Source of the DNA: Candidatus Poribacteria bacterium
GTDB lineage: Bacteria > Poribacteria > WGA-4E > WGA-3G
NCBI GenBank assembly: GCA_003635185.1
Contig: PYJA01000113.1
Location: 1-64,000 of the forward strand
Length of the DNA stretch: 64,000 nt
Direction: 5' to 3'
Positions 617-13,020 of this stretch are shown piece after piece. Each line of letters begins with the position of its first letter. The stretch's first letter is position 1. A model generated the notes under the pieces. That model ran no database searches, was not told the DNA's origin, and worked only from the letters and a program-made list of their open reading frames with translations. The position numbers were made by a program, and so were the translations under genes.

Positions 617-695
617 TGAAATATGGTGAACCTATTGACCAATATTCAACTTTTTGGTATACTCTTTCTATCACTACACGAAAGGAAGTACATAC

Positions 696-3158
696 ATGGC
701 AATCAAAAAATCCCAACTCTATGCCTCGCTCTGGCAAAGCTGCGATGAACTCCGCGGCGGTATGGATGCCTCCCAATACAAAGACTACATCCTCACACTC
801 CTTTTCATGAAATACATCTCTGATAAAACAGAAACAAATTCTCGTCTGCTTATAAAAGCACCTGAAGGCGGAAGTTTCGCAGATATGGTCGAATTGATTG
901 GTAATCCAGAGATCGGTGATGGCATTAACAAGATTATCAATAAATTCGTTGAAGAAAATGAGTTGGATAATGTTCTCGTATTAGCAGACTTCAACGATCC
1001 CAGCAAACTCGGCAGTGGTAAAGAGATGGTGGATCGCCTCTCTAAACTGGTCGCTATCTTCAACGATCTGGACCTCGGCGCAAACAGGGCAGAAGGCGAT
1101 GATCTGCTTGGCGATGCCTATGAGTATCTGATGCGGCACTTCGCCACAGAATCGGGTAAAAGCAAAGGACAGTTCTACACCCCCGCAGAAGTCTCGCGCA
1201 TTATGGCGAAGGTGATTGGTATAGGTCCGGAAACCAGAAAGAGCTGGACAATATATGACCCTACTTGTGGTTCCGGTTCACTTCTTATCAGGGCAACGGA
1301 TGAAGCACCACGTGGACTAACACCTTATGGACAAGAAAAGGATAATGCTACTTATGCGCTTGCCTTGATGAATATGATTATACACGATATTACCAACGCG
1401 GAACTTTGGCACGGTAACACGCTTTCTGTCCCCCACACGTGGGAAGCAGTCAATGAACTCAAAAGATTTGACTTTGCTGTCGCAAATCCACCTTTTTCTG
1501 ACAAGGGATGGACAAGCGGTGTCAATCTAAATGACGACCCGTATAATCGTTTTGAGGACGGCATCCCACCCGCGAAAAATGGCGATTATGCGTTTCTGCT
1601 ACACTTCATTGCCTCGCTCAAAAGCACAGGAAAAGGCGCAATTATCTTACCGCACGGTGTGCTGTTCCGCGGCAACAAGGAAGCAGACATCCGTAGAAAA
1701 CTCATCCAACGTGGATATATCAAAGGGACCATCGGTTTACCTGCCAATCTATTTTACGGCACTGGCATCCCTGCATGTATCATCGTAATTGATAAGGAGA
1801 AATCTGAAGACCGTACAGACATCTTTATGATTGACGCAAGCAAGGGGTTTAAAAAAGACGGCAACAAGAATCGACTTCGTGCACAGGATATTCACAAAAT
1901 CGTGTCCGTTTTCAACAATCAGACTGAAATAGAGGGGTATTCCCGAATAGTGCCGACATCCGAAATTGCTGACTCCACCAACGACTATAACCTCAATATC
2001 CCGCGCTATATAGACAACAGCGAACCCGAAGACCTGCACGACCTTGACGCACACCTCAACGGCGGCATCCCCGACGAAGATATAGATGAGCTTGAAGACT
2101 ATTGGAGTGCTATCCCTACATTGTGTGCCTATCTGTTTGAACCGAACTTCAGATCAGGATACAGCAGTCTGGCAGTAGAAACGCAAGAGATAAAAAACAC
2201 TATTCATAACAATCGCGCATTTATTGCCTATCAGGAATATGTGTTACATATCTGCAAGGAGTGGGAAGATAGTCAGTTCCCACTACTGCTCGGTATGTCT
2301 GTCGGTTCGAATCCCAGAAAAATTATTGATTCCATGTCAGAGGACATGCTAACGCAGTTTGCTGACGTGCCACTGCTTGATCCCTACGGTGTCTATCAAG
2401 AACTGATGGATTATTGGGATGACGTGATGCAGGACGATGTATATCTGATCGCCACAGATGGATGGGTGAAGGCATCGCAACCGCGCGACATTATCCAAGA
2501 GAAAAATCTCAAGGAAACGCCTGACCTCACCATAAAGAAAAAAAAATATAAGATGGATCTCATCCCGCCTACCTTGATTATTGCACGCTATTTTGCCGAT
2601 GAACAAGCAGAAATTGACACACTCCAAACCGTGCTGGAGACTGCCACACAAACGCTTGACGAATACATTGAGGAACACATTGGCGACGAGGGATTACTCT
2701 CGGATGTAGTTAACGATAGTGGAAACATAACAAAGAGTGCTGTGAGTAACCGTCTTAAGGAACTCACACCCGACTTGTTGATGCTCAACGAAACACAAGA
2801 TAACGATGAGGAACACGATGCACTTGAACACTGCTTATCATTAATTGATGCAAAGTCAAAAGCGGACAAGGCGGTGAAAGATGCACAACTCGCGCTGGAT
2901 GAACAGGTGTTGGCACGTTACAAAACGCTCACCGAAACCGAAATTAAGCAACTCGTGATTGACGATAAATGGTACGCCACAATCCAAGCCGCAGTTGCAG
3001 GTGAGGTGCAGCGGTTGACGCAGAACCTCACTGAACGCGTCAAGGAATTAGAGGAACGTTACGCACAGACCTTGCCATCTCTGATTCAGGATGTGCAGGA
3101 GTTTAGCATGAAAGTTGAGAAGCATTTGTCAAATATGAGGGTGGACTGGGATGAGTAA
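696..3158 (+). CDS. hsdM: Type I restriction-modification system, methyltransferase subunit M
   Basis: DPTCGSGSLL and NPPF motifs, 'GQFYTPAEVSRIMAKV'; ATG at 696 preferred over 654 by homology to MAIKKSQLYASLW starts; long C-terminal extension. Confidence 0.93.
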   Translation: MAIKKSQLYASLWQSCDELRGGMDASQYKDYILTLLFMKYISDKTETNSRLLIKAPEGGSFADMVELIGNPEIGDGINKIINKFVEENELDNVLVLADFNDPSKLGSGKEMVDRLSKLVAIFNDLDLGANRAEGDDLLGDAYEYLMRHFATESGKSKGQFYTPAEVSRIMAKVIGIGPETRKSWTIYDPTCGSGSLLIRATDEAPRGLTPYGQEKDNATYALALMNMIIHDITNAELWHGNTLSVPHTWEAVNELKRFDFAVANPPFSDKGWTSGVNLNDDPYNRFEDGIPPAKNGDYAFLLHFIASLKSTGKGAIILPHGVLFRGNKEADIRRKLIQRGYIKGTIGLPANLFYGTGIPACIIVIDKEKSEDRTDIFMIDASKGFKKDGNKNRLRAQDIHKIVSVFNNQTEIEGYSRIVPTSEIADSTNDYNLNIPRYIDNSEPEDLHDLDAHLNGGIPDEDIDELEDYWSAIPTLCAYLFEPNFRSGYSSLAVETQEIKNTIHNNRAFIAYQEYVLHICKEWEDSQFPLLLGMSVGSNPRKIIDSMSEDMLTQFADVPLLDPYGVYQELMDYWDDVMQDDVYLIATDGWVKASQPRDIIQEKNLKETPDLTIKKKKYKMDLIPPTLIIARYFADEQAEIDTLQTVLETATQTLDEYIEEHIGDEGLLSDVVNDSGNITKSAVSNRLKELTPDLLMLNETQDNDEEHDALEHCLSLIDAKSKADKAVKDAQLALDEQVLARYKTLTETEIKQLVIDDKWYATIQAAVAGEVQRLTQNLTERVKELEERYAQTLPSLIQDVQEFSMKVEKHLSNMRVDWDE

Positions 3159-4371
3159 TCAGCAAAGATTCAGCGGAGAGTGGAAAATAAAGCGGTTGGG
3201 AGAAATCGCATCAATTCGGAACCAAAAAGTAATGCCCGAAGATGTAAATCCTAACACTCTTTGCGTAGAATTAGAGCATATCGGGTCAGGTAATGGGCAG
3301 TTGTTGGAGAATTCCTCTGCAGAATACTCAACAGCGTCAAAATATCGATTTTTCACTGGTGACGTTCTCTTCGGTCGACTTCGTTCATATCTTCGGAAAT
3401 ACTGGCTAGCTGACCGAGATGGAATCTGTACGACTGAAATATGGCCGTTAATGGTAGATTCTAAGCAAGTGGATAGTGCATTCCTGCATGCCATCGTTCA
3501 GACTGATGAATTCTTTGCAATGGCAAATCTTTCTTACGGCACGCATATGCCGCGCACAGATTGGACAGTCATGTGTAACTTTACGGTTATGTTACCCTCA
3601 ATGCAGGAACAACGCGCCATCGCCGAAGTCCTGTCAGATGTGGACGGGTTAATCAATGCATTGGACGCACTCATCGCCAAGAAGCGCGCCATCAAGCAAG
3701 CTACCATGCAGCAACTGCTTACTGGCGATACGCGCCTACCGGGTTTCAGCGGGGAATGGGAAATGAAAAAAATGGGACAAATCGGTTCAATCTATGGTGG
3801 ATTGTCCGGTAAAACTAAAACAGATTTTGAAGGCGGTAATGCACTTTATGTAACATTTCTGGGTGTTTTAGAAAATGTTATTCTTGATATGCGCCATACG
3901 GAACGTGTTCATGTCAGACAAGGCGAATCACAAAATTCTGTAATGGAAGGAGATTTATTGTTTAACGCCTCATCTGAAACACCGGGCGACCTTGCAATAG
4001 GTGCAGTGATGGGAGAACAATTGGAAAATCTATATCTAAATAGCTTCTGTTTTGGTTTTAGAATTCACGATAAGAATAAATATATACCTTTGTTCTTTGC
4101 CTATTATTTTAGAGGATCCGTTGGGCGTGCAATTATGAATGCATTAGCACAAGGTGCCACGCGATACAATATGTCAAAAAGTCAATTTCGAGACCTTGAA
4201 TTGTCTATTCCATCTGGTGCGGAACAACGCGCCATCACCGCTGTCCTCTCCGATATGGATGCCGAAATCGCCGCACTGGAACAGCGTAGAGACAAAACCA
4301 TCGCCATCAAACAAGGCATGATGCAGCAGCTGCTTACGGGGAAGGTGCGGTTGGTGAAACCTGAACGGTGA
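3151..4371 (+). CDS. hsdS: Type I restriction-modification system, specificity subunit S
   Basis: Two target-recognition domains separated by conserved 'EQRAIAEVLSDVDGLINALDALIAKKRAIKQATMQQLLTGDTRLPGF' helices; overlaps hsdM by 8 nt. Confidence 0.93.
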   Translation: MSNQQRFSGEWKIKRLGEIASIRNQKVMPEDVNPNTLCVELEHIGSGNGQLLENSSAEYSTASKYRFFTGDVLFGRLRSYLRKYWLADRDGICTTEIWPLMVDSKQVDSAFLHAIVQTDEFFAMANLSYGTHMPRTDWTVMCNFTVMLPSMQEQRAIAEVLSDVDGLINALDALIAKKRAIKQATMQQLLTGDTRLPGFSGEWEMKKMGQIGSIYGGLSGKTKTDFEGGNALYVTFLGVLENVILDMRHTERVHVRQGESQNSVMEGDLLFNASSETPGDLAIGAVMGEQLENLYLNSFCFGFRIHDKNKYIPLFFAYYFRGSVGRAIMNALAQGATRYNMSKSQFRDLELSIPSGAEQRAITAVLSDMDAEIAALEQRRDKTIAIKQGMMQQLLTGKVRLVKPER

Positions 4372-4558: not shown

Positions 4559-5020
4559 TTATTCTTGGTTAGAGTTAAAATTAAGACTTATTATTTCTCT
4601 ACCTTGCGCCTTTGCAATTTCAACCGAATTTGTCTGAGGCATAAGCGGTGTATTTTTAGGAACAAGGAATTTATCAACTGGCGGAAACACATTTTCGTTA
4701 AGTTCTTCTGGGGCAACATATTTAGAATTAAACTCTGCAGAGCTATTATTTGGAATTGTTGCTTTTAGTAAACGTCCCATTTCAGGTTTCGCAAAAACGT
4801 CGTGTATACTAATTAACCCGGAGCGTAAAAGATTAAGACGTTTTAGGGACACCTCGGTATAAAGCCACATATCATGCTCAGGTAAGTCATCCGCACATAA
4901 AGCTATATAAAAGGAATCTACTAAATTTTTGCATGAAAAAAGTAGCGGCATATTAAAATATTCATATACTTCTATAATTTCAAGTTCGCCTAATTGCGGA
5001 TTATTAAGAATGTTATACAT
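4559..5020 (-). CDS. Conserved hypothetical protein (possibly DUF6575-like)
   Basis: 153-aa ORF opposite to the R-M operon, directly downstream of the start of the next minus-strand ORF. Confidence 0.55.
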   Translation of the reverse strand: MYNILNNPQLGELEIIEVYEYFNMPLLFSCKNLVDSFYIALCADDLPEHDMWLYTEVSLKRLNLLRSGLISIHDVFAKPEMGRLLKATIPNNSSAEFNSKYVAPEELNENVFPPVDKFLVPKNTPLMPQTNSVEIAKAQGREIISLNFNSNQE

Positions 5021-5038: not shown

Positions 5039-5356
5039 TTAAAATGTCTTAAATAGATCCCATATTTTTACATCTTTAAATACCCATAATGTATGATGAG
5101 ATTGTTTATCCTCTCTTGGCGTTCTTTTAATATATCCACAAACCGAAGTTAATTCTGCTGCTGCAAGTTTCCAATTCCTAAAAAAATAGAATTCCTTTTT
5201 AATTTTTAATGCCTCTGTTTGATCTGTAAACACCGAAATTCCGTGTGTTTCACAATGCCAGGTATCTGGATCATATCCTAAAGGAACACTTTTTACAGAC
5301 TCTGGATGCCTTATAGCTTTCGGTTTAAAATCTGTTGCTATTGTGTCATAAAGCAT
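5039..5356 (-). CDS. Hypothetical protein
   Basis: 105-aa ORF just upstream of, and co-oriented with, the 153-aa ORF; 18-nt gap. Confidence 0.5.
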   Translation of the reverse strand: MLYDTIATDFKPKAIRHPESVKSVPLGYDPDTWHCETHGISVFTDQTEALKIKKEFYFFRNWKLAAAELTSVCGYIKRTPREDKQSHHTLWVFKDVKIWDLFKTF

Positions 5357-5653: not shown

Positions 5654-6049
5654 ATGTCGATAAAATCTATAGAGCAAGACTTTATTGATAAAGTCTCTGC
5701 AAAGGTTCGGGTTGTTCCTGATGGCGAAGACCGATTTCGCGTGTTTACCCCCTTTATGTTTGACGACGGTGACCATATTTCCATTGTTCTAAAAAAAGAA
5801 CAAGGGGGTTGGGTGCTTTCAGATGAAGGGCATACCTATATGCACCTTACCTACGATATTAGTGAAAAGAAATTGTTTAGTGGTACACGCAATCAAATTA
5901 TTTCAAATGCCCTTGAAACATTTAACGTTAAAGATCGTTTTGGAGAGTTAATTTTAAGGGTTGAAGAAGATCGCTTTGGCGATGCATTATACTCTTTTGC
6001 ACAGGCACTTGTCCGAATGGGAGGCGTGTTATGCTTGAAAGTCGGTTAA
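5654..6049 (+). CDS. DUF1828 domain protein
   Basis: 'DRFRVFTPFMFDDGDHISIVLKKEQGGWVLSDEGHTYMHL' matches the DUF1828 pattern; overlaps next ORF by 19 nt. Confidence 0.65.
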   Translation: MSIKSIEQDFIDKVSAKVRVVPDGEDRFRVFTPFMFDDGDHISIVLKKEQGGWVLSDEGHTYMHLTYDISEKKLFSGTRNQIISNALETFNVKDRFGELILRVEEDRFGDALYSFAQALVRMGGVLCLKVG

Positions 6050-7584
6050 GAGAGCTCTGGGACAATTTGCAAGGCAAAAAACCGCATCTCCCACATTTCC
6101 TATCAGAAATTTACTTGGACGGTATTCGTGGTCTTGACAATTTACGGGTGCTGTTTGATTATCCCGTGAGTGTTATTGCTGGTGGAAACGCTACCGGAAA
6201 ATCAACAGTATTGTTTGCTGCTGCATGTGCCTATAAAGTCCCGGGAGCAGGTGTTAAGGACTTTGTACCGTCTACGCTTTTTCCATATTATAACCCGAAA
6301 CTCGGTGCCCGCCAAGATAGACTGCAAAAAATAACGTTAGAATTCAATTACCAGACACCAGACGGCATGCGTTCTATGCGATGGCGACGGGGCAAAGGTT
6401 GGAATCGGAGTTTCTTCGGGCGCAAAAACGCCAGTCAACCGGAACGGCAAGTCTACCTCAGAACACTCAGTAATTTAAGTAATCCCTCAGAAGTGCGCGG
6501 TGTTCTCAGCATGTCGCGTCTGAAGCTTGAACCGCAAGAAATACCGTTGACACCGTCACAGATTGAATTTGCTCACCAGATGCTTCCCTTTAGATATTCA
6601 GAAGTTGTTGACCTGTCCAGCGGTAATAAAAATTTGCTTTTTGCTGCGCAGGAAGACGGTGCTGCTTACTCTGAGTTACAAATGGCTGCTGGTGAACGTG
6701 CCCTGTTGCGGTTGTCAAAAGAGATCGCTCAGTTCGATGGTGCACTTGTGCTAATCGATGAAGTGGAAGCTGGCCTACATCCTTGGGTGCAGCAACTTCT
6801 CATGTTGCATTTACAGCAGTTAGCACTTCGCAACGACCTCCAAATTATCGTGACTTCACACAGTCCTGTCGTTCTCGACTCAGTCCCCGCACGCGGTCGC
6901 ATCTTTCTTGACAGAGATGATGCATCAGGCAAAATTATTGTCCGTCCACCCTATCGCGATGTAATTCAGAACGCACTCTATGGTCGTTCCAGTGAGGTGC
7001 TCAAACTACTTTGTGAAGATAATATCGCTGAAGGTATTTTAAAAGGTGTATTCGATCTGCTATTATCCAACCAAAGGATTAAGTGGGAATCTGTTCACAT
7101 CGGGCGAGATACAGGTGCAAGTGAGTTTCCAATGCACGCTCGCGCTTTAGCAAAATTTGGTCAACTTCAAAACACCGTTTTCATTCTTGATGGTGACCAG
7201 AAAGATGGAGAAATCGCACAAAAAATACAGGCAGCTGCAGGACACAGCACCAACATTCCAATATTGTTCCTGCCCGGTAACGGCGCACCGGAAAATTGGA
7301 TCTGGGAGAAACTTCAGCGAATCTCCGCTGTTGATGCAGCGCAATTAGGCACCAATCCGGGCATTTTATCCAACTTAATGGAGCAATTGGATGCGACTTA
7401 TGCCGCGGTGTCCGAATCACCAGAAACACCTAAAACCAAATTTCGCACCTTGTCTGAGCATCTAAGTAGAAAGCCCCCAGAGGTCTGCCGAATTCTTGCA
7501 AGGTTAGAGGCGGAGCGAAAAGAAAGCGACATTCAACCCTTCGTAGAAGAATTAGAGCGTATTTTGCTACAGTGGCGAGAGTAG
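6031..7584 (+). CDS. OLD-like ATPase with probable TOPRIM C-terminal domain
   Basis: Walker A GGNATGKST, ABC-type 'ALVLIDEVEAGLHP', H-loop 'IIVTSHSPVVLDS', then 'LCEDNIAEGIL' and 'VFILDGD' TOPRIM-like motifs. Confidence 0.75.
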   Translation: MLESRLRELWDNLQGKKPHLPHFLSEIYLDGIRGLDNLRVLFDYPVSVIAGGNATGKSTVLFAAACAYKVPGAGVKDFVPSTLFPYYNPKLGARQDRLQKITLEFNYQTPDGMRSMRWRRGKGWNRSFFGRKNASQPERQVYLRTLSNLSNPSEVRGVLSMSRLKLEPQEIPLTPSQIEFAHQMLPFRYSEVVDLSSGNKNLLFAAQEDGAAYSELQMAAGERALLRLSKEIAQFDGALVLIDEVEAGLHPWVQQLLMLHLQQLALRNDLQIIVTSHSPVVLDSVPARGRIFLDRDDASGKIIVRPPYRDVIQNALYGRSSEVLKLLCEDNIAEGILKGVFDLLLSNQRIKWESVHIGRDTGASEFPMHARALAKFGQLQNTVFILDGDQKDGEIAQKIQAAAGHSTNIPILFLPGNGAPENWIWEKLQRISAVDAAQLGTNPGILSNLMEQLDATYAAVSESPETPKTKFRTLSEHLSRKPPEVCRILARLEAERKESDIQPFVEELERILLQWRE

Positions 7585-7607
7585 TCACAGAACCAACACA
7601 AATAATC

Positions 7608-9113
7608 ATGAACACCATCCGTATTTTCATCAGCCGCGTTCAAAGAGAATTTGCACAGGAACGGAAGGCACTGCGCGATTTTCTACAGAACGACCCATTG
7701 ATGCGGCGGTTCTTTGATGTTTTCCTGTTTGAAGATGTCCCAGCGTCAGATCGCCGTCCAGATGCACTCTATCTGGACGAGGTTGAACAGTCCGACCTCT
7801 ATGTGGGCTTGTTCGGTAACGACTACGGCTTTGAGGATGCAGACGGTATATCCCCGACAGAACGCGAATTCGACCAAGCAACCACTTCCAGTATACACCG
7901 ACTCATTTTCGTGAAAGGGACAGATGACAGTGTCCGGCATCCGAAGATGCAGACACTCATCCGTAAAGTACAAGCTGGGCTCATCCGAAAACGATTCAAC
8001 ACACCGGAAGAATTAGTAACGGCACTCTACGCAGCATTAGTTGAATACCTTGATAGCAAAGACTTCGTCCGTTCAGAACCTTTTGACGCGGCACCCTGTT
8101 TGAAAGCATCGCTGGACGATCTCGACTCCGAGCCAATGACTCGGTTTATCCGAATAGCGCGTATGGCAAGAGCATTCCCGCTAACTGAAGATGTTTCAAT
8201 GGAAGAATTGTTAGGACACCTCAATCTCCTAAATGATGGACGACCGACGAACGCTGCGGTGCTACTGTTTGGCAAATCACCACAGCATTTCCTAATTTCC
8301 TCAGGGGTTAAATGTGCCCATTACCACGGAACTCAGGTAGCGAAACCAATCCCGTCTCATCAAATCTACAACGGAACAGCGTTTCAACTCGTCGATCAAG
8401 CGGTGGATTTTGTACTTAGCAAGATCAATCTATGGGTAGGGACACGCGCAGAAAGCGTGCAAGTACCTGTCGCCTATGAAATTCCGAAAGAAGTGGTAAC
8501 TGAAGCCATTGTCAATGCTGTAGCACATAGAGACTATACTAGTAATGCCAGCGTCCAGGTGATGCTATTCTCAGATCGGCTTGAGGTCTGGAATCCTGGT
8601 AGATTACCACCCTCCTTGACTCTGGAACAACTGCGAGATACGCACCCGTCAGTTCCCATTAACCGCTTACTTGCGCGCTCCTTGTACCTCAACCGATACA
8701 TTGAAGAGATGGGGACAGGGACGTTAGACATGATACACCGTTGCCGTGATGCCGGTTTACCCGAACCAGAATTCAGTGACAACAGCGGATTTAAGACAAC
8801 AATTTGGCGTGCTAAACCTGCAGGACTGCCAGAGTCACTGCCAGAGTCACTGCCAGAGTCACAACCTGAAGATATGCAATCCAAAGTGATAAAACTACTC
8901 GCTACCGGACCAATGCCAAAATCTGAATTGTCCAAAAGTTTAGGACAGAAAGCAATTTCTGCACAACTTAACGCTGTTGTCCGGAAACTTGTGATAGATC
9001 AGTTAATAGAATACACGATACCCGACAAACCCAATAGCAGACTACAAAAATATCGTTTGACAGACAAAGGAAAGACTGAACTATCCAGACTGAAATCAGG
9101 AAATGCAGTATAA
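7608..9113 (+). CDS. DUF4062 plus ATP-binding (HATPase_c_4/RecG-like) protein with C-terminal winged helix
   Basis: N-terminus 'IRIFISRVQREFAQERKALRDFL' (DUF4062); 'EAIVNAVAHRDYTSNASVQVMLFSDRLEVWNPG' is HATPase_c_4-like; ATG at 7608. Confidence 0.75.
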   Translation: MNTIRIFISRVQREFAQERKALRDFLQNDPLMRRFFDVFLFEDVPASDRRPDALYLDEVEQSDLYVGLFGNDYGFEDADGISPTEREFDQATTSSIHRLIFVKGTDDSVRHPKMQTLIRKVQAGLIRKRFNTPEELVTALYAALVEYLDSKDFVRSEPFDAAPCLKASLDDLDSEPMTRFIRIARMARAFPLTEDVSMEELLGHLNLLNDGRPTNAAVLLFGKSPQHFLISSGVKCAHYHGTQVAKPIPSHQIYNGTAFQLVDQAVDFVLSKINLWVGTRAESVQVPVAYEIPKEVVTEAIVNAVAHRDYTSNASVQVMLFSDRLEVWNPGRLPPSLTLEQLRDTHPSVPINRLLARSLYLNRYIEEMGTGTLDMIHRCRDAGLPEPEFSDNSGFKTTIWRAKPAGLPESLPESLPESQPEDMQSKVIKLLATGPMPKSELSKSLGQKAISAQLNAVVRKLVIDQLIEYTIPDKPNSRLQKYRLTDKGKTELSRLKSGNAV

Positions 9114-9137
9114 AATGCAGTATATGTAGATTGGTAG

Positions 9138-12100
9138 ATGAACGAAACCCAAAAATCATTCGGGAAGAGGGAAGGCATGCAGATCATTCGCGAAACAGAA
9201 CAAGATACACAAGAACGCGTCATAGAATTCTTCCAAGAAGTCTTGAACTACGAATACCTCGGCAACTGGACAGATAGCGTTGACGAAAACAGCAATATCA
9301 TCCCCGAAGACTTATCTGACTGGCTGCGGAGACAAGGAAACGAACCCGATCACATCAACAGAGCAGTTTATCAACTACAACAAGCAGCGAAAATCGGGGG
9401 CAGTAGGACGCTTTATGACGCGAATTTTGAAGTCTATGAAAGTCTACGCTACGGTGTAAAGGTGCAACCGGATGTCAGCAAACAACATGAAACCGTCTGG
9501 CTAATAGATTGGAAAAACCCGGAAAACAACGACTTCGGAATTGCAGAAGAGGTAACGATCAGAGGCAGGAACAACAAACGTCCCGATCTTGTCCTATATA
9601 TCAACGGCATCGCTATCGGTGTGTTAGAGTTGAAACGTTCCATCGTCTCTGTTTCTGAAGGTATCCGTCAAAACCTTGCAAACCAAACGGAGGATTTCAT
9701 AGAGTGGTTTTTCAGCACGGTGCAGCTTGTGATGGCAGGGAATGATACGGAGGGTTTGCGTTATGGGGTTATTAAGACACCTGAAAAATATTGGTTGCGA
9801 TGGAAAGAGAAGCGGACACAGCAAGATATCGAACCCAATCCTTTACTCAGAGAACTCGGTCAATTTTGCAACAAAGAACGGATACTTGAAGTCCTGCACG
9901 ACTTTATTGTATTTGATGCTGGAAAAAAGAAGATATGTCGACATAATCAATACTACGGTGTGAAGGCAGCCCAAGAACGCGTCAAGATCAGAGAAGGCGG
10001 CATTATCTGGCACACACAAGGTAGCGGCAAAAGTTTGGTGATGGTCTGGTTAGCAAAATGGATCCTGGAAAACAACCCTAACGCACGGGTACTCATCATC
10101 ACTGACCGCACAGAATTAGATGACCAAATAGAAGGTGTCTTTAAAGGTGTCCGTGAGGACATCATACGCACAGAGAGTTGTGAGCATTTATTCCGAGTAC
10201 TCAGTGATTCATCTGTGCGGTTAGCATGTTCCCTCGTTCATAAGTTCCGTGAAAACGATGAGGAAAGTGAACCCGATTATGACGGTTATGTTGCAGACTT
10301 CAAAAGTAATCTATCAGATAATTTTCGCGTAGAGGACGATTTCTTTGTCTTCGTAGACGAATGCCACCGCACACAGTCCGGAAAACTTCACAATGCAATG
10401 AAAACACTTCTACCCGATGCAATGTTGATTGGCTTTACAGGAACACCTCTACTGACAAGTGACAAACGGCGGAGCATTGCGACTTTCGGTAGGTATATTG
10501 ACACCTACAAATATGACGAGGCAGTCAATGACGGTGTCGTGCTTGACCTGCGGTATGAGGCACGCGACATCGACCAGAATCTCACTTCACAAAAACGGAT
10601 TGACCAATTCTTTGATAACAAAACACGTGGGTTAAACGACGTAGCAAAAGCACGACTCAAGGCGCGTTGGGGAACGATGCTAAATGTGGAAAGTTCAAAG
10701 AATCGCTTACAGAAAATAGTCGCTGATATTTTATTAGATATGGGCAGGTACGATCGACTGAAAAGTGGTAATGGAAACGCAATGCTTGTGGCAAACAGTA
10801 TCCTATCTGCTTGTCGACTCTATAATCTTTTTCAAGAGACAACATTGCAAGGGAAATGTGCCGTCATAACATCCTACAGACCAACTCCAGAATCCATCAG
10901 GCTTGAAGAAACGGGAGCAGGTCTGACCGAAAACCAAGAGAAATACAACACCTATAAAGATATGCTTACTGCATATTTCGGAGATTCTGTTAGTCTCACA
11001 AACGACAAGGTTAATCATTTTGAACGCGAGGTAAAAAGATGTTTCATTGATGAACCTGCACAGATGAAACTCCTCATCGTTGTGGATAAATTGCTCACAG
11101 GTTTTGACGCACCACCTGCCACCTATCTCTACATAGACAAAAGCATGCAGGATCACGGGTTGTTTCAAGCAATTTGTCGCGTCAATCGCATTCATACTGA
11201 AGACAAGGAATTCGGTTACATCATTGACTACAAAAACCTTTTTATGTCATTAGAGGAGGCAATGACGGACTACACAGGCGGGGCATTTGATAACTTCGAC
11301 AAGGAAGATGTTGAAGGATTATTGAAAGATAGACTGGAAAAAGGTAGAGAACGATTAGAGGACGCACGCGAGGCGATTAAACGGTTGTGTGAACCTGTTG
11401 ATCCACCGAAACAGATTGAAGATTATATCCGTTATTTCTGTAGTGCGGAAAGCGGAAACGACAAACAGATAAAGGCTAATGAGCAGAAACGGATAAAACT
11501 CTATAAAATGACCGCAGCTTTGGTACGTGCTTATGCTAACCTTGCAAACGAGATGGAGGCGGCGGGCTATACAGCAACGGAAGCAGAAAATATTGACGAA
11601 GAGGTGAAAAATTACGAATATATACGTCATCAAGTGAAATTGGCAAGTGGCGACTACATTGCCCTAAAAATGTATGAACCAGATATGCGACATCTGTTGG
11701 ATACTTATGTCAGTGCTGATGATAGTGAACTACTCACCGATTTTGACAACGTCCCACTTGTACAACTGATTGTCAATAACGGTGCTGAGGAGGCGGTTCA
11801 AAACCTACCTGAAGGTATCCGCACAAACCAAGAGGCAATGTCAGCAGCAATTGATAACAACATACGTCGCGTCATTGTGGACAGAACTGAGGTTAATCCC
11901 AAATATTATGAAGAGATGTCCCGACTGCTTGATGAATTAATAGAACAGCGCAGACAGGAAAAAATTGATTATCAGCAATATCTGTCCAAAGTTACAGCGT
12001 TAAGCAAAGAGGTCACCGATCCGCCAACCGAAGCCTATCCACCTGACATTGGAACAGCAGCACGCCAAGCATTTTTTGATAACTTAGGTGACGACATCCC

Positions 12101-12296
12101 TGATAATCTTAAAGCAGAGATAGCAATAGCGATAGACGAGTCTATCAAAGATGAAAGAAGTGATGCGTGGAGAGGCAATAGAATCAAAGAACTTGAAGTT
12201 CGGAACGCTATTGAAATGGTCAACGATGAATATAATGACATCACCATTGATGTTGATTTAATATTTAATATCGCAAAAAGTCAAGATGAATACTAA
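9138..12296 (+). CDS. hsdR: Type I restriction-modification system, endonuclease/helicase subunit R
   Basis: N-terminal 'LVLYINGIAIGVLELK' nuclease motif, 'WHTQGSGKSLVMVWLAKWI', 'DECHRTQSG', 'FTGTPLL', 'DKLLTGFDAP'. Confidence 0.95.
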   Translation: MNETQKSFGKREGMQIIRETEQDTQERVIEFFQEVLNYEYLGNWTDSVDENSNIIPEDLSDWLRRQGNEPDHINRAVYQLQQAAKIGGSRTLYDANFEVYESLRYGVKVQPDVSKQHETVWLIDWKNPENNDFGIAEEVTIRGRNNKRPDLVLYINGIAIGVLELKRSIVSVSEGIRQNLANQTEDFIEWFFSTVQLVMAGNDTEGLRYGVIKTPEKYWLRWKEKRTQQDIEPNPLLRELGQFCNKERILEVLHDFIVFDAGKKKICRHNQYYGVKAAQERVKIREGGIIWHTQGSGKSLVMVWLAKWILENNPNARVLIITDRTELDDQIEGVFKGVREDIIRTESCEHLFRVLSDSSVRLACSLVHKFRENDEESEPDYDGYVADFKSNLSDNFRVEDDFFVFVDECHRTQSGKLHNAMKTLLPDAMLIGFTGTPLLTSDKRRSIATFGRYIDTYKYDEAVNDGVVLDLRYEARDIDQNLTSQKRIDQFFDNKTRGLNDVAKARLKARWGTMLNVESSKNRLQKIVADILLDMGRYDRLKSGNGNAMLVANSILSACRLYNLFQETTLQGKCAVITSYRPTPESIRLEETGAGLTENQEKYNTYKDMLTAYFGDSVSLTNDKVNHFEREVKRCFIDEPAQMKLLIVVDKLLTGFDAPPATYLYIDKSMQDHGLFQAICRVNRIHTEDKEFGYIIDYKNLFMSLEEAMTDYTGGAFDNFDKEDVEGLLKDRLEKGRERLEDAREAIKRLCEPVDPPKQIEDYIRYFCSAESGNDKQIKANEQKRIKLYKMTAALVRAYANLANEMEAAGYTATEAENIDEEVKNYEYIRHQVKLASGDYIALKMYEPDMRHLLDTYVSADDSELLTDFDNVPLVQLIVNNGAEEAVQNLPEGIRTNQEAMSAAIDNNIRRVIVDRTEVNPKYYEEMSRLLDELIEQRRQEKIDYQQYLSKVTALSKEVTDPPTEAYPPDIGTAARQAFFDNLGDDIPDNLKAEIAIAIDESIKDERSDAWRGNRIKELEVRNAIEMVNDEYNDITIDVDLIFNIAKSQDEY

Positions 12297-13020
12297 AACC
12301 GACAATTATCACATGGAAATAAGCGGTCTTTCTATAGAAGTCGTCCGAAAAGACATCAAACATTTCTATATCGGTGTTCATCCACCGAACGGACAGGTAC
12401 GTGTATCTGCACCGATGCGCCTTGACGATGATGCCGTTCGGTTGGCTATCATTTCACGTTTGGGATGGATTAAACGGAAACAAGCATCTTTTGCAAAGCA
12501 GGAACGCCAATCACAACGTGAATATGTGTCTGGTGAAAGCCACTATTTTGCAGGAAAACGTTACAGACTAAAAGTGACTGAACAGGATTGCCCACCAAAA
12601 GTTCATCTGCTCAACAATACCAGAATCGGACTCATAGTGCGCCCAGGTACAGATCGAGACAAACGTGAGGCGGTGGTTTATGAATGGTATCGTGGACATC
12701 TTCGCGCACAATTACCACCACTCATTGCCAAATGGGAACAGAAAATGGGGTTGACTGTCCACGAGGTACGCATCAAGAAAATGAAAACGCTCTGGGGTTC
12801 CTGCAACATTGAAGCAAAACGCATCTGGCTTAATCTTGAACTTGCGAAGAAACCGAAATCGTGTTTGGTATATGTATTGGTGCATGAGATGGTGCATCTG
12901 CTGGAACGTCATCACAATGATAGGTTTCGTGAGTTAATGGACACCTATTTACCGCAGTGGCGCACCTATCGTGACCAACTGAATGCGGCACCGTTGGCAC
13001 ACGAAAATTGGCGATATTGA
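12286..13020 (+). CDS. YgjP/DUF45-family metal-dependent hydrolase
   Basis: 'LWGSCNIEAKRIWLNLELAKKPKSCLVYVLVHEMVHLLERHHNDRF'; HExxH; overlaps hsdR 3' end. Confidence 0.88.
   Translation: MNTKTDNYHMEISGLSIEVVRKDIKHFYIGVHPPNGQVRVSAPMRLDDDAVRLAIISRLGWIKRKQASFAKQERQSQREYVSGESHYFAGKRYRLKVTEQDCPPKVHLLNNTRIGLIVRPGTDRDKREAVVYEWYRGHLRAQLPPLIAKWEQKMGLTVHEVRIKKMKTLWGSCNIEAKRIWLNLELAKKPKSCLVYVLVHEMVHLLERHHNDRFRELMDTYLPQWRTYRDQLNAAPLAHENWRY

Follow-up and report, generated by a model that had tools for sequence, protein, structure and literature searches.

Do the genes that lie between the specificity and restriction genes of a type I restriction-modification (R-M) operon in a Candidatus Poribacteria genome form one anti-phage system, or are they separate modules that share a site? 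We analyzed a 64,000-nt stretch (positions 1 to 64,000 of contig PYJA01000113.1, assembly GCA_003635185.1; hereafter the window) in which a first-pass annotation had described three co-directional genes, encoding a DUF1828 protein, an OLD-like ATPase-TOPRIM protein and a DUF4062/HATPase protein, as a candidate additional three-gene defence module between hsdS and hsdR. Our preferred reading, to which we assign a probability of roughly 0.72, is that separate defence modules enter, accumulate in and drop out of the gap between hsdS and hsdR, a slot that in this case holds two likely autonomous genes and one truncated gene. The first-pass annotation correctly placed the three genes within a type I R-M operon, with hsdS and hsdR on either side, but the interval also holds two genes on the minus strand. 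The features on which the argument turns are as follows:

3151-4371, plus strand: hsdS, specificity subunit, left border of the cargo interval (Pfam Methylase_S; PADLOC Specificity_I)
5654-6049, plus strand: truncated DUF1828 gene, N-terminal half (Pfam DUF1828, 1.3e-26)
6019-6024, plus strand: GGGAGG, Shine-Dalgarno-like, within the DUF1828 remnant and 6 nt 5' of the ATPase start (sequence comparison; putative role)
6031-7584, plus strand: ATPase-TOPRIM gene, 517 aa (Pfam AAA_21/AAA_15; PADLOC HEC-04, 7.4e-38)
7608-9113, plus strand: DUF4062 - HATPase_c_4 - winged-helix gene, 501 aa (Pfam DUF4062, HATPase_c_4, Fic-like_C)
9138-12296, plus strand: hsdR, right border of the cargo interval (Pfam HSDR_N, SWI2_SNF2; PADLOC REase_I, E=0)

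We traced the hsdR, DUF4062, DUF1828 and ATPase genes in 84 Poribacteria genomes and compared 21 complete hsd loci. Other genomes have relatives of the window genes at the corresponding site, and 18 of the 21 complete loci, the window included, carry at least one of the three modules or a remnant of one. The ATPase gene is present in 8 of these loci, DUF1828 (whole or in part) in 11 and DUF4062 (whole or as a remnant) in 15, and no pairwise association of the three modules was found among them (Fisher p 0.66, 1.0 and 0.36). Three loci have none of the modules between hsdS and hsdR (L228, L230, L234), one has the DUF4062 gene alone (L231) and two combine DUF1828 with DUF4062 (L225, L227), while AbiU2-like, nucleotidyltransferase and other genes appear as slot content in L219, L226, L227 and L229. 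Gene order varies as well, with DUF4062 preceding the ATPase gene in L028, L042 (as a remnant), L049 and L097. The modules persist without hsd and without each other: intact ATPase-TOPRIM genes stand amid hsd relics in L032 and L036, as do intact DUF4062 genes in L238 and L239, where only fragments of hsdM and hsdR are left. Pairwise ratios of nonsynonymous to synonymous substitution (dN/dS) of about 0.05-0.15 indicate purifying selection on the ATPase and DUF4062 genes. The co-occurrence across genomes that would mark a fixed trio was seen with all three modules intact a single time, in L049, where their order differs and no hsd operon encloses them.

The first of the three genes is no longer whole. 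Its reading frame (5654-6049) overlaps that of the ATPase gene (6031-7584) by 19 nt on the plus strand (6031/6049), as originally described, and the assignment of the three proteins to DUF1828, OLD-like and DUF4062/HATPase families is borne out by Pfam matches, but DUF1828 is present only as a truncated remnant. Homologues at the same site are about 256-268 aa long and the window frame has 131 residues, of which residues 1-128 only align to full-length relatives (262 aa), with the DNA match ending at nt 6036-6037. Because homology stops where the ATPase gene begins (6031) and relatives reach about 260 aa, the gene is truncated. Its relatives usually lie 3' of a gene of 156-160 aa (L026, L027, L029, L038, L042), for which tblastn gave no match in the window. 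At the joint, the DUF1828 side of the relatives reads GTGTTGTGCTTG and the ATPase gene of L029 starts with ATGCTTG, and the shared short TGCTTG could have mediated the deletion. The window remnant also carries a D124G change; of 11 aligned sequences, 10 have Asp at this residue. Since this change contributes to the GGGAGG 6 nt before the ATPase start, the remnant may serve as a leader and ribosome-binding site for the ATPase gene. Its dN/dS against relatives (0.12-0.22, with intact pairs similar or slightly lower at 0.07-0.15) is compatible with a short protein that may or may not still act. An independent truncation, to 136 aa, occurs in L035.

The window DUF1828 frame matches the PADLOC profile PDC-M24B (7e-15), and in this respect resembles the PADLOC candidate system PDC-M24. 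PDC-M24A is absent from the window's genome, and three relatives yielded one unlinked match (E=0.3). We rejected PDC-M24 as the identity of a gene that retains 131 of about 256 residues without PDC-M24A, and whose full-length relatives have another partner. DUF1828-family genes related to the full-length form are found in 37 of the 84 Poribacteria genomes (for example, L245, 2109-4470), some of them outside hsd and adjoining a partner of the 156-160 aa type, and the full-length gene with this partner is probably a separate two-gene unit.

By homology, the middle protein is an intact HEC-04/IbfA-like, OLD-like single-gene defence candidate. It keeps the ATPase motifs (Walker A GGNATGKST with K57, Walker B LVLIDEVE with D243/E244, and H277) and the TOPRIM residues E329 and D387-G388-D389, with E329 and D387/D389 invariant in an alignment of 42 sequences at identities down to 44%. 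Its best PADLOC defence profile is HEC-04 (7.4e-38, model positions 20-462 of 494). For the IbfA of plasmid R64 we took WP_000818556.1, a 518-aa AAA ATPase beside a ProQ-like gene, assigned by position and length (PMC12111858); this protein matches the HEC-04 profile too (9e-42), and its alignment with the window protein spans both domains (406 aa, 25% identity). IbfA blocks a P22-like phage in an abortive-type manner, and HEC-04 has been reported to protect against T4 and T5 (PMC12111858). The window protein resembles them in being one protein of about 517 aa with an ABC ATPase and a TOPRIM domain, matched by the profile along most of its length, and usually without a partner, judged by the genomic proxy that most of 80 loci show no recurring one. 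It differs in being distant in sequence and in its setting, a type I R-M operon in place of Hma.

The AlphaFold model of this protein is confident (mean predicted local distance difference test score, pLDDT, 87), and its top Foldseek match in the PDB is the class 1 OLD nuclease TsOLD (6p74) over the whole chain, followed by PtuA and the Gabija protein GajA. Alignment with VIA-align matched residues 18-320 to PtuA, AriA, SMC and Rad50 heads at Z 17-19 and left the TOPRIM part of the model uncovered, so that the TOPRIM assignment draws on the motifs, the HEC-04 profile and the whole-chain Foldseek match. The PARIS AriA and AriAB models match the ATPase part only, with scores below that of HEC-04. 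The earlier description of the protein as OLD-like and free of a UvrD partner agrees with both the 6p74 match and the Pfam content of the neighbours: no helicase (UvrD) or reverse transcriptase (RT) gene lies beside it in the window, and none recurs in related loci. Gabija was rejected because the neighbouring genes carry no UvrD domain (Pfam), and so no GajB. The protein shares with class 1 OLD nucleases (TsOLD, P2 Old) the 6p74 fold and the lack of a UvrD/RT neighbour; however, identity is 14%, and the window gene lies inside hsd, though it stands alone in most relatives. Class 1 OLD genes have been described as lying apart from other defence genes (PMC10568477).

To place the ATPase-TOPRIM gene among its relatives, we scanned genome contigs, which gave 89 relatives, 80 of them kept for neighbourhood counts; these 80 loci come from about 13 phyla. 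The closest named relatives are all Poribacteria metagenome-assembled genomes (MAGs), and the window falls within one fully supported Poribacteria clade of the tree. Relatives at 56-90% identity occur in Poribacteria, Chloroflexota, Acidobacteriota, Pseudomonadota, Tectimicrobiota, Actinomycetota, Nitrospirota, Rhodothermota, Bacteroidota, Gemmatimonadota, Latescibacterota and Cyanobacteria. The gene is solo in most of the 80 loci and lies within an hsd locus in about 14-17 of them, and no other family recurs widely beside it in the remaining non-hsd loci. The tree shows 10 changes of the hsd-embedded state and as a whole requires 25 phylum-label changes against a minimum of 12. Compared with its closest relatives, the window gene has a dN/dS of about 0.05. 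A search of phage records gave no match, and plasmids gave only distant relatives (22-27%). Many of the MAG hosts (L047-L111, L115, L122) are apparently sponge-associated, judged from bin names; phage defence is enriched in sponge-associated bacteria (PMC8163846, PMC5099237). In a Longimicrobiales hsd locus (L100, 9202-9966), a SLFN_AlbA_2-HTH gene precedes the ATPase-TOPRIM gene, a pair comparable to that of an RNA-binding protein and an AAA ATPase between hsdS and hsdR (PMC12255303).

The third gene had been given a start at 7572 and hence an overlap with the ATPase gene (7572/7584), which proves to be an artefact of a GTG start: because homologues begin MN[TP]IRIFISS, we place the start at the ATG at 7608, 23 nt after the ATPase stop. 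The protein carries a Pfam DUF4062 match (5e-19), and phmmer against PDB sequences returned KpSwz (10wc) over residues 45-140 only (8e-4) and 3lmm over residues 190-429, plus a Fic C-terminal domain. In its structural model (mean pLDDT 79), residues 1-150 have a TIR/NDT fold and match DNPH1 (Z 13), MilB (12.6), the RPS4 TIR domain (12.4) and a SARM1-type TIR domain (Z 11.4), residues 157-404 match 3lmm at Z 24, and residues 419-501 are a winged helix. Work from 2026 established DUF4062 as a TIR-like NADase ('Swarozyc', KpSwz) with catalytic E97, which causes abortive infection when the phage portal binds its other domain (PMC13174449). In an alignment with the KpSwz chain, the position taken as E97 would correspond to window E87 in the motif SPTEREF, and this putative catalytic residue is conserved in 18 of 19 aligned sequences, L236 having Gly. 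By homology, the DUF4062 domain in the window is a predicted TIR-like NADase. The ATPase-TOPRIM protein matches the already named HEC-04 family and the DUF4062 domain is that of the named NADase system Swarozyc, which goes halfway towards the match to a named system that would have counted against the first-pass proposal.

Similarly to Swarozyc, the third protein has an N-terminal DUF4062 domain with a TxxE(F/Y) catalytic Glu, encoded by a single gene in a defence-island context. In contrast, the 326-residue KpSwz PDB chain has a portal-binding domain, whereas the window protein has a 230-aa HATPase_c_4 module and a MarR-like winged helix. We rejected Swarozyc proper as the identity of the whole protein, whose C-terminal part differs and contains no portal-binding domain of the KpSwz type. 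The central module (157-404) is shared with SLFN_AlbA_2-HATPase_c_4 proteins and 3lmm, with DUF4062 replacing SLFN_AlbA_2 in the window. Since a relative from the same phylum (L152) joins the HATPase_c_4 module to SLFN_AlbA_2 in DUF4062's place, and since PADLOC matches residues 166-345 to partner proteins of SIR2-type prokaryotic Argonautes, several effectors appear to share the HATPase_c_4 scaffold.

This DUF4062-HATPase_c_4-wHTH architecture (wHTH, winged helix-turn-helix) is the least described part of the locus, and neither HATPase nor AlbA appears as a term in the main text of the Swarozyc paper (PMC13174449). It is conceivable, if rather unlikely, that proteins of this kind form a separate and so far undescribed branch of immunity by TIR-like NADases, with the NADase in the place of a Schlafen/AlbA_2 effector on a shared sensor scaffold; type I R-M operons would be their preferred carriers, and they would act as a second layer once restriction has failed. 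The gene has a dN/dS of about 0.12 against its closest relatives. A solo gene of the same architecture, without hsd, is found at 57% identity on plasmids of Legionella hackeliae and L. anisa, where the copies (L246, 9001-10483; L247, 9001-10494) adjoin partition and replication genes; the L. hackeliae gene is annotated as two overlapping coding sequences and the other plasmid copy is intact. A solo, hsd-free copy also occurs in L236 (8075-9553), 3' of a 902-aa gene. In the search of phage records with this protein, only the HATPase_c_4 side was covered among the matches listed.

Several considerations weigh against an assortment of autonomous modules. The Poribacteria loci are related by descent, the 21 loci amount to few independent cases, and the power of the Fisher tests is low. 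Some linkage recurs, with DUF4062 and ATPase-TOPRIM adjacent in the Acidobacteriota locus L097 and in L049; the dN/dS values are pairwise counts with large dS; the ATPase-TOPRIM protein is only 25% similar to IbfA; and the solo copy in L236 has Gly for the putative catalytic Glu. A single dedicated machine of DUF1828, OLD-like nuclease and DUF4062 ATPase, as proposed by the first-pass annotation, would fit the co-directional, tightly spaced genes of the window and the loci in which all three occur whole or as remnants (L026/L047, L035/L083, L037/L058, L042) or intact (L049). Yet the window and L035 have DUF1828 only in truncated form, the DUF4062 gene of L026 carries a frameshift and those of L037 and L042 are mere remnants, the order differs in L028, L042 and L049, and each part occurs without the others, the ATPase gene being mostly solo in its 80 loci and the 21 loci showing no association, which together make such a machine highly improbable. 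What survives of the proposal is the defence context and two of three genes that are, by homology, probably anti-phage, not the three-gene module. An apparent DUF4062 gene in L068 was discounted as a C-terminal fragment only. There is similarly little chance that the slot merely gathers decaying genes and that the two intact frames have no current defence role. Many DUF1828, DUF4062 and even HsdR/HsdM remnants in relatives, along with the truncated DUF1828 of the window, point that way, but the low dN/dS of both intact genes against their closest relatives (about 0.05 and 0.12), the full set of motif residues and the survival of ATPase-TOPRIM in otherwise decayed loci speak against it.

We also regard as unlikely, though less so, that the DUF4062 protein, perhaps with the ATPase-TOPRIM protein, is a PrrC-like guard that HsdR/HsdM would silence and that would destroy NAD+ when a phage inhibits restriction. 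Nearly all traced Poribacteria copies of DUF4062-HATPase_c_4 adjoin hsd genes or remnants, usually directly 5' of hsdR, with L236 as the clear exception, and the neighbourhood in the Acidobacteriota locus L097 is the same; however, a position 5' of hsdR suits any cargo of the slot, and intact DUF4062 genes persist beside fragmented hsdM and hsdR (L238, L239) and stand solo on Legionella plasmids and in L236. A different doubt concerns chemistry: residues 1-150 resemble MilB/DNPH1 in fold (Z 12-13) no less closely than they do TIR domains, and the domain might hydrolyse nucleotides as an N-glycosidase or make a signal molecule in place of depleting NAD+. The Pfam DUF4062 match (5e-19) and the sequence match to KpSwz, a shown NADase (PMC13174449), render this improbable.

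If the gap between hsdS and hsdR is a slot for separate modules, the front half of DUF1828 would have been left by a deletion and would now act mainly as a lead-in and ribosome-binding site for the next gene. The ATPase-TOPRIM protein would work alone, its ABC/SMC-like ATPase sensing an infection-linked state and licensing the TOPRIM site to act on nucleic acid, thereby aborting phage growth. In the DUF4062 protein, the HATPase_c_4 module and winged helix probably sense phage and release NAD+ hydrolysis. All functional statements on the locus are made by homology.

The remaining features of the locus are the following:

654-3158, plus strand: hsdM, type I R-M methyltransferase (Pfam N6_Mtase, 3e-101; PADLOC MTase_I, E=0)
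4559-5020, minus strand: DUF6575 gene, additional cargo (Pfam DUF6575, 7.7e-18; weak PADLOC PD-T4-10_B match, 0.0022)
5039-5356, minus strand: 105-aa open reading frame (ORF call; no Pfam/PADLOC family match)
9101-9124, plus strand: 12-bp repeat in two copies, at the DUF4062 gene end and before hsdR (TRF)
12286-13020, plus strand: YgjP/SprT-like metallopeptidase gene (Pfam YgjP-like, 2e-63)

The DUF6575 gene and the 105-aa frame, lying between hsdS and DUF1828, are possibly a two-gene cargo on the opposite strand. The YgjP-like metallopeptidase gene occupies the same place in nearly all related hsd loci and accompanies this hsd type. The 9101-9124 repeat spans the DUF4062 stop codon and varies in copy number, with a longer array in L217 and other relatives, and a further 12-bp tandem repeat (8825-8862) lies in frame in the DUF4062 gene, encoding PESL repeats whose length varies among relatives; both arrays are possible sites of slippage or deletion. 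Just 5' of hsdM is a transposase-like frame (47-553) with a weak UPF0236 match. In L225 and L226, two short genes recur after hsdS, the second beginning MARRVFYSFHY..., which we take to be reminiscent of TIR-like ThsB proteins.

Defence cargo between hsdS and hsdR is an already published kind of arrangement: DarTG2 lies between these genes in the RptR island, with a metallopeptidase gene downstream (PMC12255303), and TgvAB sits within a V. cholerae type I R-M operon (PMC11411939). The window resembles both in having defence genes inside such an operon, and the DarTG2 island also in the downstream metallopeptidase gene; it differs from both in the cargo genes and in the bacteria that carry them. 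Taken together, these results recast a supposed three-gene system as a probable case of R-M operons serving as loading bays for single-gene immunity, and the locus points to a predicted NADase architecture, with DUF4062 on a RecG/Schlafen-type HATPase_c_4 scaffold, and to an HEC-04-like protein common to many phyla of apparently sponge-associated bacteria.

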